From Deltaproteobacteria bacterium (GTDB lineage Bacteria; Desulfobacterota; DSM-4660; Desulfatiglandales; Desulfatiglandaceae), in the NCBI GenBank assembly GCA_019309145.1, contig JAFDGR010000007.1:1-39809 (forward strand): 39,809 nt of DNA, in the 5' to 3' direction. The position numbers and the translations under genes are program-made. The notes under the pieces were generated by a model. It was not told where the DNA came from, made no database searches, and worked only from the letters and a program-made list of their open reading frames with translations. Shown in pieces: positions 4,889 to 29,832 of this stretch. Within the stretch, counting starts at the first letter, position 1. Each line of letters opens with the position of its first letter.

Positions 4889-6139
4889 CTAGATCATTTC
4901 AAGGGCGCACGCCATGGAAACCCCGCCGCCGCCGCAGAGGGTCGCGAGCCCGAAACTCTTTCCATGTTTTTTCATGGCATAAAGAAGAGTTACCATGATT
5001 CTGCACCCGGTTGAGCCCACCGGATGACCGAGACCGATCCCGGAACCATTGATGTTGGTGATTTCCCGGTTCAGGCCCAATTCCTTCTCGCATCCAAGAT
5101 ACTGGGCTGCGAAGGCTTCATTCACCTCAATGAGTTCGAAATCTTCCAGCTTAATATCCGGATTCCTTTCGAAGAGGTTTCTCACGGCAGGCACCGGGCT
5201 CAATCCCATGACCGAAGGATGGCAGGCTCCTCTTCCAATTGCCGTGATTTGCGCGATGGGCTGGATGCCCAGTTCCTTGGCCTTGTCGGCGGACATAATG
5301 ACCATTGCACTGGAACCGTCATTGATACCCGAAGAATTTCCCGCCGTAACTTTCCCTATTTTTGGTATGAAGGCGGGAGGAAGCTTCTTGAGGTCTTCGA
5401 GCGTGAGGCCAGGACGGAAATGTTCGTCCTTATCGAAAATGATGGGTGGCTTTTTCCTTTTCGGCACTTCAACAGGGACGATTTCGTCCTTGAAATCTCC
5501 TTCTTTCGTGGCCCTCTCCGCGTTGTTGTGGCTGCGAAGTGCTACCTCGTCCATTTCTTCCCGGCTGATATTATGGAGCTGGGCAATGAATTCAGCAGTG
5601 TGCCCCATAATATATGGCTTCCCTTTGAAAAGTTCGAGCGGCATGCCTTCTTTCACGGGGCCATCCTCAGGATGAGGGATGAGATGGGATCCACAATGGA
5701 GCGCGTGGATCATATTGTCCACGAACACGTGGTCCTGGAGTCGGCATCCCCAACGGGCATTTGGGACGGAGTAGGGCACACCGGACATGTGTTCCACACC
5801 GCCTGCCAGGATGATGTCCGCCATGCCCGCCTGAATCATGGCCATCCCTGATATGACGGCCTCCATGCCGGAAATACAGACACGGTTTACGGTCACCGCG
5901 GTCACGGTATCTGGAATCCCGGCCATCAGAGCGCAGACGCGTGCGACATTCAATGCATCTGCCGGCTCCACGCAGCAACCGAACCGCACATCGTCGATCA
6001 TGGAGGGTTCAATGCCTGCCCTTCGGATTGCCTCCTTCATGGCGACACTCCCGATAACGGCGGCATTCAAGTCGCGAAGGGTCCCTCCAAAGGCACCAAC
6101 GGCTGTTCTGCACGCAGAGACTATTACCACGTCTTTCAT
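4889..6139 (-). CDS. Thiolase (acetyl-CoA C-acyltransferase family)
   Basis: A 416-residue thiolase with the full catalytic set: Cys88 (NRVCISGMEAV), His372 (GHPVGSTG) and Cys402 (CGGGG), plus NEAFAAQ. It would cleave 3-ketoacyl-CoA with CoA in beta-oxidation, or condense two acetyl-CoA; sequence alone does not decide. The usual NxNGGAIA motif reads NINGSGIGLGH. Two adjacent ATGs exist (6142 and 6139); AAGGAG at 6148-6153 gives 8-base spacing to 6139, so that is chosen. The gene follows the 46-residue basic protein by 16 bases on the same strand, with its ribosome site just beyond that stop, so the two form an operon. The promoter and an attenuator-like hairpin lie upstream of the small gene. 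Confidence 0.92.
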   Translation of the reverse strand: MKDVVIVSACRTAVGAFGGTLRDLNAAVIGSVAMKEAIRRAGIEPSMIDDVRFGCCVEPADALNVARVCALMAGIPDTVTAVTVNRVCISGMEAVISGMAMIQAGMADIILAGGVEHMSGVPYSVPNARWGCRLQDHVFVDNMIHALHCGSHLIPHPEDGPVKEGMPLELFKGKPYIMGHTAEFIAQLHNISREEMDEVALRSHNNAERATKEGDFKDEIVPVEVPKRKKPPIIFDKDEHFRPGLTLEDLKKLPPAFIPKIGKVTAGNSSGINDGSSAMVIMSADKAKELGIQPIAQITAIGRGACHPSVMGLSPVPAVRNLFERNPDIKLEDFELIEVNEAFAAQYLGCEKELGLNREITNINGSGIGLGHPVGSTGCRIMVTLLYAMKKHGKSFGLATLCGGGGVSMACALEMI

Positions 6140-6155
6140 CATCGCTACTCCTTTT

Positions 6156-6296
6156 CTAGTCTTCCTTGTGTCCGGCAAGTGATCTCAGGATTTTCGTGTT
6201 TTCCTGGAGGCGCTTCATATCCGCCTTGAGGTTTTTTCTGTTGGGCCTGGCTTTTCTGGCCCTGATGAGTTTGGTTTTCTTGGAATTGGAAGCCAT
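6156..6296 (-). CDS. Small basic protein of unknown function (46 residues), upstream of the thiolase
   Basis: MASNSKKTKLIRARKARP begins a 46-residue, strongly basic, Cys-free product, predicted helical in its second half (KADMKRLQENTKILRSLAG). The evidence that it is translated is good: AAGGAG at 6305-6310 stands 8 bases from the ATG, and the stop (6156-6158) abuts the ribosome site of the thiolase. The charge pattern suggests nucleic acid or ribosome binding, but that is inference. I recognise no named family. It sits behind a sigma-70-like promoter (6389-6417) and a terminator-like hairpin (6313-6343). A longer in-frame version starting at 6344 lacks a ribosome site and would run through the hairpin. 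Confidence 0.72.
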   Translation of the reverse strand: MASNSKKTKLIRARKARPNRKNLKADMKRLQENTKILRSLAGHKED

Positions 6297-6312
6297 GGTT
6301 TGATCTCCTTCG

Positions 6313-6343
6313 AAAAAAATTGATGACCCTTTGAAAGTCATCA
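6313..6343 (-). terminator. Terminator-like hairpin in the leader of the small protein/thiolase operon (possible attenuator)
   Basis: On the minus strand TGATGAC pairs perfectly with GTCATCA; extending inward with two G-U pairs and one A-U gives a 10-pair stem with a 3-base loop, followed after one A by seven T. Three bases later comes the ribosome site AAGGAG. Since only 16 bases separate the T-run from the small gene's ATG, its promoter must lie upstream and the hairpin is transcribed. It could also simply end the purQ transcript. Confidence 0.7.
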
Positions 6344-6388
6344 TCCGCCCACGAGCGGGCAGTTGACGATTTCAGAAAATCGCAAGTA

Positions 6389-6417
6389 AGCATACTATCA
6401 TGAGAGAGGAGGGTCAA
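6389..6417 (-). promoter_or_regulatory. Sigma-70-type promoter for the small protein/thiolase operon
   Basis: On the minus strand TTGACC (6417-6412) and TATGCT (6394-6389) are separated by 17 bases. Predicted start near 6382 gives an 86-base leader. That leader can form CGATTT-TCTG-AAATCG at its 5' end, a GC hairpin around 6346-6360, and the terminator-like hairpin just before the ribosome site. Confidence 0.5.
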
Positions 6418-6433
6418 GGGGAAATGTGATGTG

Positions 6434-6464
6434 AGGCGTCAGGCATCAGGCGTAAGGCGTAGGG
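6434..6464 (+). repeat. Heptanucleotide tandem repeat (AGGCRTM) between purQ and the thiolase operon
   Basis: Four consecutive 7-base units, AGGCGTC, AGGCATC, AGGCGTA and AGGCGTA, followed by AGGG. The array lies in the non-coding gap after the purQ stop (minus strand) and just upstream of the promoter at 6389-6417. It has the same period as the array at 1870-1900 but a different unit. Confidence 0.7.
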
Positions 6465-6517: not shown

Positions 6518-7342
6518 TTAGCAATTTTCTCTCAGGTATTGGACCGCGTTCCTGAAGAGTTGAATACCTTTCCCTTCTTCGGTTTCCAGCGTCTTCCCTT
6601 CGCGAAGCAGGATTTCCTTGTCCCTTGTCCATGCGGGGTGATTTGTAAAATGGTTGTATGCCTCCGGGTGTGGCATGAGCCCCAGAATTCTGCCGCTCGG
6701 ATCGCAGATCCCCGCGATATCCCCCAGCGAGCCGTTTGGATTCCAGGGATAGCGCCCATTGGCTTGATTTCCTTCAGGATCCGCATACTGGAGTACAACC
6801 TGGTTTTGATGGAAAAGGTTGGCCAGGTCGCTCTCTGCGGCAAAAAATTTTCCCTCTCCATGGCGCACGGGGAGCTCTATGGAAGGCATTTCCCTGGTAA
6901 AAACGCAGGGTGATTCGCTGTTGATCTTTAATGTTACCCAGGTGTCCACAAAGTTCCCCGAATCATTATACGTGAGTGCAACACGCCGTTCATCGTACCT
7001 GCAGTTCAATGCGGGCAACAACCCAAGGTTTACGAGGCATTGAAATCCATTGCAGATCCCGAGGATAAGCCTGCCGGAGTCCACAAAACGAGCGATCTCG
7101 TCCCCCAGGCGCCGTTTTATTTTGGCCGCCATGATCACGCCTGCCCCGTGATCATCTCCCCAACTGAATCCCCCTCCGAAGACCAGGATATGATAATCTT
7201 CGAGCTGGAGCGTCTTGTCGAAGATGACCTGGTTTATATGGACCCGATCCGGTTCAGCTCCTGCCTGGGTAAGGGCGTATTGGGTTTCATAATCACAGTT
7301 CAGCCCATAGCCGGTGAATATCAATGCCCTTATTGGATTCAT
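6518..7342 (-). CDS. purQ: Phosphoribosylformylglycinamidine synthase, glutaminase subunit PurQ
   Basis: Class I glutamine amidotransferase, 274 residues, supplying ammonia from glutamine for the fourth step of purine synthesis (FGAR to FGAM). The nucleophile is Cys97 in GICNGFQ and the His-Glu pair is at about 225 and 227 in PHPEAYNH. It is longer than the compact PurQ of Bacillus (about 227 residues) and resembles the amidotransferase domain of large PurL proteins, here encoded separately. Its ATG (7342-7340) overlaps the PurL stop (7341-7339) by the classic 4-base arrangement, so translation is probably coupled and the subunits made in equal amounts. No clear terminator is seen right after it; the first candidate is at 6313-6343. 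Confidence 0.93.
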   Translation of the reverse strand: MNPIRALIFTGYGLNCDYETQYALTQAGAEPDRVHINQVIFDKTLQLEDYHILVFGGGFSWGDDHGAGVIMAAKIKRRLGDEIARFVDSGRLILGICNGFQCLVNLGLLPALNCRYDERRVALTYNDSGNFVDTWVTLKINSESPCVFTREMPSIELPVRHGEGKFFAAESDLANLFHQNQVVLQYADPEGNQANGRYPWNPNGSLGDIAGICDPSGRILGLMPHPEAYNHFTNHPAWTRDKEILLREGKTLETEEGKGIQLFRNAVQYLRENC

Positions 7343-10555: not shown

Positions 10556-10696
10556 ATGAAGCTTGCATTACTGGAAGCCAGTGCCTATATTGAAAAGGGT
10601 GATTATGGAGCCGCAGATTCCCATACGCGAAAATCTGTGGCGAAATATTTGCAGGAACATAATATGATCTCTACGGAGAGGATAGACTATGGATGA
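10556..10696 (+). CDS. Possible small protein (46 residues) overlapping the ClpX-like gene
   Basis: ATG at 10556 opens a 46-residue frame beginning MKLALLEASAYIEKGDYGAA and ending RIDYG, with its stop 8 bases inside the next gene (overlap 10689-10696). The composition (EASAYIEKGDYGAADSHTRK) looks like real protein, reminiscent of a single TPR-like helix pair, and the overlap would allow translational coupling. Against it: no good ribosome site, an upstream in-frame stop only 18 bases away, and a promoter-like pair (10563-10591) inside it. No family recognised; treat as tentative. Confidence 0.35.
   Translation: MKLALLEASAYIEKGDYGAADSHTRKSVAKYLQEHNMISTERIDYG
10563..10591 (+). promoter_or_regulatory. 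Weak sigma-70-type promoter candidate for the ClpX-like/ahb operon
   Basis: TTGCAT (10563-10568) and TATATT (10586-10591) are 17 bases apart; the predicted start near 10598 leaves about 90 bases before the ClpX-like ATG. The -35 match is poor. It conflicts with the tentative small gene covering the same bases, so at most one of the two is likely to matter. Confidence 0.3.
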
Positions 10697-12509
10697 TGAA
10701 AAAAAAGAACTGGAGGGGAGCGAAGGACAAACCAAGATCCCGAACCAGAAAGAACTTGAAAAGGAATTGAGTGAATACCTCTCAAAGAAATACGGGAACA
10801 GGGTAAAAGTTATTTCTCCCTTTGTGGTCCCGCGTCCGGGTGAAGAAAGAATGGATGACGGCCAAAAGAGCAGGCACGGAGAGAAAGGTCCTGATTTTGA
10901 CCTGCTGCCCGAGGAATTGGAGGCATACCTGGATGGTTTTGTGGTCAAACAAAATGATGCAAAAGCAGTGCTGTCCACCAAAATTTGCACTCATTTCAAT
11001 CGGATCAAGTATTATAACAAAACGTCACAGGGCGCAAAAAAATCCAGTGTCGGCATGATTAAGAACAACATCCTCATGATTGGACCGACCGGGGTGGGGA
11101 AGACCTATATTATCAAGCTTATCGCCCATAAGCTCGGCGTCCCCTTTGTAAAGGGGGATGCCACGAAGTTCAGCGAGACCGGTTACGTGGGTGGGGATGT
11201 GGAGGATCTGGTCAGAGATCTGGTTTACGAGGCGAACGATGATATTGAACTGGCGGAAAACGGGATTATCTACATTGACGAAATAGACAAGATCGCCTCC
11301 GCCCACAATTTGATCGGGCATGATGTATCACGGACCGGGGTGCAACGGGCCCTTCTGAAACCCATGGAAGAAACGGAAGTTGATTTGAAGGTTCCCCATG
11401 ACCCTATTTCCCAGATTCAGGCAATCGAGCAGTACAGGAGAACGGGAAAAAGGGAAAAGCGCGTGGTCAATACCAGGAATATCCTGTTTATTGTGAGCGG
11501 GGCGTTCGGTGATCTGACTGAAATTATTCGAAAACGGCTGCAACAGCAGGGAATTGGGTTTGAGGCTGATGTGCGTTCGACTGAAGTCCCCTGGGAGATC
11601 CTGAAGGAAGTAAAGGCACAAGACTTGATCGAGTTCGGATTTGAATCGGAGTTCGTGGGACGGTTGCCCGTGGTCGTTGTTTTTGATGAGCTCAGGAAGG
11701 AAGATTTGCTGGAGATTCTGAATAATCCGAACAACCCGATCCTGATCAGCAAGAGGAGAGATTTCAGGGCGTACGGGATTGACATCCAGTTTGAAGAGGA
11801 GGCGCTGGACCAGATAGCTGAGATGGCCGCGGCCGAAAAGACAGGGGCAAGAGGATTGGTGAGCGCCATCGAGAAGGTGCTGATTCCCTTTGAAAAAACC
11901 CTGCCCTCGACGGATATCAAGTATTTCCTGGTAACTCCTGATGTGGTAAGAAACCCTGCCGGGGAACTGGAAAAACTCCTCGCGAACCCCGATGATCCTG
12001 CGCGTATCTCCAGGTTCCAGGACGCGAAAGAGAAGGAACTCAGGAATATTCAGGCCTATATCGCCGGAAGCGCAGAAAATTTTCGTAAGAATTCAGGCCT
12101 GGAAGTCGGGGAACGACGGATTGAACTCCTTTCCGCATTGTATTTGAAAAACATCTCTGATATTGATAGCGTTTTTGAAGATTTTAAGGCGATGTATCAG
12201 CAAATAAAGATCGAGGAGGCGTCTCTGCCGGAGAAACTGGAGGTGAGTGTTTCTTTCGAAGACAGCGCAATTGATGAAATCATTCACCAGGCCATAGAGA
12301 AGGATGAAGAGGCGGGCACCCTGGCGTATCAGCTCGCCAAGAAACTTGAATATGGTCTGAAGCTGGTTCGGGATCGTTCCGGGATTGAACATTTTTCGAT
12401 TAATGGCGAGGCAATCATTGACATGGAGAAATTCGTGAACGATTTGCTCAAGCAGTATTATCACGAAGAATATGGCGGACCAATACCCAATTTCAAAGTA
12501 CGCGACTGA
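10689..12509 (+). CDS. ClpX-like AAA+ unfoldase without the zinc-binding domain
   Basis: A 606-residue AAA+ protein clearly of the ClpX/HslU clade: Walker A GPTGVGKT (132-139), pore loop GYVG (165-168), Walker B IIYIDEID (193-200), FIVSGAFGDL (sensor region, 267-276), EFVGRLP with the probable arginine finger (321-327) and sensor-2 GARGL (386-390). The tripeptide IGF, which in ClpX docks on ClpP, is present at 289-291 in the equivalent loop, so partnership with ClpP is likely. Differences from ClpX (about 420 residues): the N-terminal Cys4 zinc domain is replaced by a charged segment, and a C-terminal extension of about 170 residues (435-606) is present. CGGAGAGG about 7 bases upstream supports the ATG. 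It ends 5 bases before ahbC, so it is in the heme operon. Substrate unknown. Confidence 0.85.
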   Translation: MDDEKKELEGSEGQTKIPNQKELEKELSEYLSKKYGNRVKVISPFVVPRPGEERMDDGQKSRHGEKGPDFDLLPEELEAYLDGFVVKQNDAKAVLSTKICTHFNRIKYYNKTSQGAKKSSVGMIKNNILMIGPTGVGKTYIIKLIAHKLGVPFVKGDATKFSETGYVGGDVEDLVRDLVYEANDDIELAENGIIYIDEIDKIASAHNLIGHDVSRTGVQRALLKPMEETEVDLKVPHDPISQIQAIEQYRRTGKREKRVVNTRNILFIVSGAFGDLTEIIRKRLQQQGIGFEADVRSTEVPWEILKEVKAQDLIEFGFESEFVGRLPVVVVFDELRKEDLLEILNNPNNPILISKRRDFRAYGIDIQFEEEALDQIAEMAAAEKTGARGLVSAIEKVLIPFEKTLPSTDIKYFLVTPDVVRNPAGELEKLLANPDDPARISRFQDAKEKELRNIQAYIAGSAENFRKNSGLEVGERRIELLSALYLKNISDIDSVFEDFKAMYQQIKIEEASLPEKLEVSVSFEDSAIDEIIHQAIEKDEEAGTLAYQLAKKLEYGLKLVRDRSGIEHFSINGEAIIDMEKFVNDLLKQYYHEEYGGPIPNFKVRD

Positions 12510-29790: not shown

Positions 29791-29832
29791 ACGGCAGACT
29801 TCATGAGAAGAAGTCTGCCGTTTTCTTTTTTT
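29791..29832 (+). terminator. Intrinsic terminator after lpxC
   Basis: A perfect 12-pair stem, ACGGCAGACTTC (29791-29802) with GAAGTCTGCCGT (29810-29821), a 7-base loop and a T-rich tail running to about 29832. It ends the lpxC transcript before the next operon's promoter. The 302 bases between lpxC and the next gene hold only this terminator and the promoter at 29891-29919. Confidence 0.92.

Follow-up and report, generated by a model that had tools for sequence, protein, structure and literature searches.

A structured 5' leader with a weak terminator-like hairpin before a small-protein/thiolase unit in an uncultured relative of sulfate-reducing bacteria

Introduction

Leader transcription attenuators, whether of the trp/pyr type, riboswitches or protein-controlled leaders, use an intrinsic terminator. 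Hairpins in 5' untranslated regions are also known as stability or translation-enhancer elements, for example in the leader of phage T7 gene 10. The locus described here lies on the minus strand of a 39,809-nt stretch of DNA (the window, numbered from its first letter). It shares with intrinsic-terminator attenuators a promoter, a short leader, a hairpin with a U-run before the first gene and, in the window's species, an alternative pairing. It differs from them in its weak terminator, in an antiterminator that is not conserved and in having no Rfam match, and neither a ligand nor a leader peptide or binding protein was found. The stem-loop, the U-rich spacer and the strong AAGGAG are shared with leaders of the T7 gene 10 type, but the U-run is long enough here to resemble a terminator, and the element is known from its sequence. 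A published report (PMC7815308) describes premature 3' ends in 5' untranslated regions as common in E. coli, which was counted in favor of an attenuator; the likeness is a possible 3' end between promoter and start codon, although the E. coli ends were mapped and the one considered here is predicted. A literature search for the small-ORF/thiolase locus returned nothing relevant.

Promoter and gene order

A TTGACC-17-TATGCT promoter on the minus strand is followed in order by the hairpin-bearing leader, a run of seven T, an AAGGAG, an ORF of 46 codons and a thiolase gene. The features of the locus are listed below.

6518-7342, minus strand: purQ, the upstream neighbor, on the same strand
6389-6417, minus strand: sigma-70-type promoter, with -35 TTGACC (6417-6412), a 17-nt spacer and -10 TATGCT (6394-6389); both hexamers are the same in the genus sister, G001
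6297-6382, minus strand: 5' leader, about 86 nt long if transcription starts some 7 nt past the -10 box, as inferred
6363-6385, minus strand: hairpin 1 of the predicted terminator state, or 5' arm of a possible antiterminator (CGTCA at 6368-6364), from folding; its sequence, including CGTCA, differs in G001
6345-6362, minus strand: hairpin 2, CTGCCC-GCTCGT-GGGCGG; G001 keeps the GCCC/GGGC arms unchanged around another loop, and GCCC...GGG is aligned in G018
6321-6343, minus strand: terminator-like hairpin TGATGAC-TTTCAAAGG-GTCATCA (whole, TGATGACTTTCAAAGGGTCATCA); both 7-nt arms are identical in G001, and G018 lacks the hairpin
6313-6319, minus strand: U-tract, T7 in the window and TTCTTTTT in G001, read in both
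6305-6310, minus strand: Shine-Dalgarno AAGGAG, read in the window and compared with G001
6156-6296, minus strand: basic 46-aa protein of a conserved family without a name, from the orthologue distribution; ATG at 6296
4889-6142, minus strand: thiolase, an acetyl-CoA C-acyltransferase of fat breakdown, encoded as the unit's second gene; TIGR01930, 428 bits, and adjacent in relatives

The thiolase start at 6142 lies 13 bases past the stop codon of the 46-aa ORF. Both purQ and purL are upstream of the promoter and on the minus strand, like the small ORF, and no terminator-like site is listed between the purQ stop codon and the promoter. The same gap holds imperfect heptamer repeats (ACGCCTT ACGCCTG ATGCCTG ACGCCTC; 6433-6460, minus strand), which are absent from the sister genome.

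The preliminary description had reported a good promoter, an 86-base leader with hairpins and a terminator-like stem followed by seven T; all are present on the minus strand, at coordinates that proved correct. Comparison of orthologues supports the predicted promoter well as a real one, conserved in position. Of 29 orthologous small ORFs, 24 carry TTGAC in the 160 nt upstream, against 14% in shuffles; a 17-nt spacer and a -10-like hexamer follow in most. The putative promoter of the small-protein/thiolase unit is conserved across the order. The window, G001 and G018 (from the nearest other genus) share a distance of 92 nt from the -10 box to the ATG, which is mostly 36-43 nt in other genera.

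The small protein

Orthologues of the small ORF were found in 42 of 61 relatives. Within the class 51 of 85 genomes have one and, across the phylum, 15 of 198 sampled, almost always as a single copy and often between purQ and thiolase. The 46-aa sequence, MASNSKKTKLIRARKARPNRKNLKADMKRLQENTKILRSLAGHKED, is basic and matched neither Pfam nor NCBIfam. Two helices are predicted (pLDDT 88), and a fold search with the model gave no PDB match. Two further coding possibilities were rejected. A leader peptide, LRFSEIVNCPLVGG (TTG start, 6385-6341), lacks a Shine-Dalgarno sequence and meets a TAA after six codons in G001, and an N-terminal extension to the ATG at 6344, which would give 62 aa, keeps the frame in the window but not in G001, and the orthologues have MASN-like starts. 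Elsewhere in the window, positions 10689-12509 (plus strand) encode a 606-aa AAA protein with a ClpX-like core; its best NCBIfam match, NF003745, covers residues 72-423 with 325 bits, below the cut-off of 359, and the last 180 residues fall outside the ClpX models.

Folding of the leader

The terminator-like hairpin (6343-6321) has 10 pairs and a predicted energy of -9.1 kcal/mol. The 72 nt of leader up to the U-run fold at -26.7 kcal/mol (z -3.7), better than all except 1 of 200 dinucleotide shuffles, and under a strict pattern a comparable stem plus T-run arose in 29 of 4000 shuffled leaders. Five loose hairpin-plus-T patterns occur in the whole window and 0-8 in its shuffles, so that the pattern alone is weak evidence, and the weight for the reality of the leader rests on its position and conservation. 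The distance of 16 bases given in the preliminary description between the T-run and the ATG was confirmed by count; that from the T-run to AAGGAG is two bases, not three. That the hairpin and U-run would be transcribed, as the same description held, is supported along with the upstream promoter. Searches with Rfam 15 at family gathering scores gave no riboswitch, T-box or ribosomal-protein leader match in the whole window. An RNA thermometer was rejected, as the predicted terminator probability in the window falls smoothly from 0.49 to 0.09 over 4 to 70°C with no sharp transition.

A mutually exclusive antiterminator had been proposed in which CGTCA pairs with TGATG of the terminator 5' arm. 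This pairing exists in the window, where it extends into a large antiterminator-like fold of -26.7 kcal/mol, nearly balanced with the three-hairpin terminator state of -25.5 kcal/mol, and the terminator stem has a probability of 0.4. G001 has TTTTA in place of CGTCA and a different hairpin 1 sequence; no long antiterminator forms there and the terminator hairpin wins outright, with a probability of 1.0. A shared two-state mechanism is thus not supported, and the switch was rejected as a general mechanism, although it could still work in the window's species, since the two folds are nearly balanced there. Because the proposed switch is not common to the nearest relative, the leader is regarded as a plausible, fairly ordinary gene-control element.

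Conservation and distribution

When the window is compared with G001, hairpin 2 and the terminator match at 22 of 22 stem-arm positions, and the rest of the leader at 34 of 53 (Fisher P = 0.0004). Identity at 4-fold sites of the same genomes is 55% in thiolase, 43% in purQ and 62% in recO. From purQ to the promoter the two sequences align no better than shuffled DNA, whereas the promoter and leader do align. Wholly identical arms, set against 43-62% at 4-fold sites, indicate that the half of the leader with hairpin 2 and the terminator is under selection, a constraint that falls short of proof of RNA structure. G001 keeps the hairpin, the spacing and a U-rich tract, with the U-run broken by a C. 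The covariation check suggested earlier yields nothing, because the two sequences compared, both from one genus, agree in all 12 stem pairs and show no compensatory change.

The hairpins and T-run might be functionless, their likeness to the sister being residual ancestry. This would suit loose hairpin-plus-T patterns whose number in the window does not exceed that in shuffles, and a leader absent from all other genera searched; it is made unlikely by arms that stay fully identical while 4-fold sites are at about 50%, and by intergenic DNA just upstream that does not align.

Invariant arms around a variable center could instead mark TGATGAC-N9-GTCATCA as a DNA operator, at which a dimeric repressor would block transcription downstream of the promoter, with the RNA hairpin incidental; a purely structural stem might show compensatory changes at this divergence. 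Yet hairpin 2, outside the palindrome, is conserved too, and no DNA-binding regulator was seen among the immediate neighbors. An operator regulon was rejected after a search for exact copies in G000 and G001, as the palindrome is not repeated upstream of other genes: G000 has a single further copy, which falls within a TPR-like coding sequence, and in G001 there is none besides that of the leader. A search allowing two mismatches gave similar counts in all family genomes and is therefore uninformative. An operator is considered quite unlikely.

Searches by DNA sequence across 46 family genomes and by covariance model across 99 genomes found the leader only in the window's genome and in G001. 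The remaining covariance-model matches (E at least 0.07) were treated as chance, as were short DNA matches in G023 and G068, the latter by reading inside a UvrA-like coding sequence. The thiolase loci of named genomes added no further member of the genus. The leader of G018 has the same length and a GCCC...GGG hairpin, without the U-run or the terminator stem; its fold does not outdo those of shuffled sequences (z -0.8) and is predicted to pair GAGGA of the ribosome-binding site. Judged from these searches, the leader appears lineage-specific and belongs to the genus.

Terminator strength and interpretation

By the d'Aubenton-Carafa formula, the terminator-like hairpin of the window has a d score of -32.6 and that of G001 one of -50.2. 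An A separates the stem from the U-run; when this A is ignored the scores are -1.9 and -27.3, respectively. Two strong canonical terminators of the window reach +21.4 (2532-2567) and +26.5 (29792-29820). By this measure the hairpin is a weak predicted intrinsic terminator in both species, and any termination at the leader is expected to be partial.

Weak d scores also fit a 5' untranslated element for stability or translation, in which a stem-loop with a U-rich stretch directly ahead of the Shine-Dalgarno sequence would protect the mRNA, help ribosome loading or form a site for an RNA-binding protein, with no termination. The spacing between hairpin and AAGGAG is exactly 10 nt in the window and in G001 even though the intervening bases differ, and the equal-length leader of G018, which pairs part of its ribosome-binding site and has no U-run, points the same way, but its fold does not exceed chance. 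Synonymous sites of the small ORF (6156-6296, minus strand, against L002 792-929) are unusually conserved, at 33 of 40, compared with 338 of 574 in neighboring genes (P = 0.002) and 574 of 874 in ribosomal-protein genes of the same genome pair (P = 0.017). G000 encodes CsrA and the leader carries GGA motifs, but the draft genome of the sister yielded no CsrA. Folding predicts weak pairing of the ribosome-binding site itself in the window and the sister, and an unbroken T7 beside a perfect stem exceeds the needs of such an element. These points leave a stability or translation element as a serious possibility, at about one chance in three.

Partial attenuation is favored by a modest margin over a hairpin for mRNA stability or translation, which follows closely. 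The order-wide promoter would drive the small-protein/thiolase unit and, within the genus, the structured leader would end in the weak terminator-like hairpin directly before the ribosome-binding site. Part of the transcripts would stop near 6313 and others read through, and the hairpin would thereby work as a leaky promoter-proximal attenuator, perhaps tuned by some factor. This reading is tentative, its probability lying somewhat below one half. A much more speculative extension, considered very improbable, is an autogenous circuit in which the basic, helical 46-aa protein would bind its own leader and set termination or translation, also controlling thiolase.

Significance

Attenuation in a 5' leader is an ordinary mechanism, and the element is of an ordinary kind with a lineage-specific leader. 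The more durable points are the order-wide promoter predicted before an unnamed 46-aa protein and the frequent place of that protein between purQ and thiolase. RNA regulation in uncultured relatives of sulfate reducers is little studied; if termination does occur, a thiolase gene in these organisms would be under an RNA control specific to the lineage.
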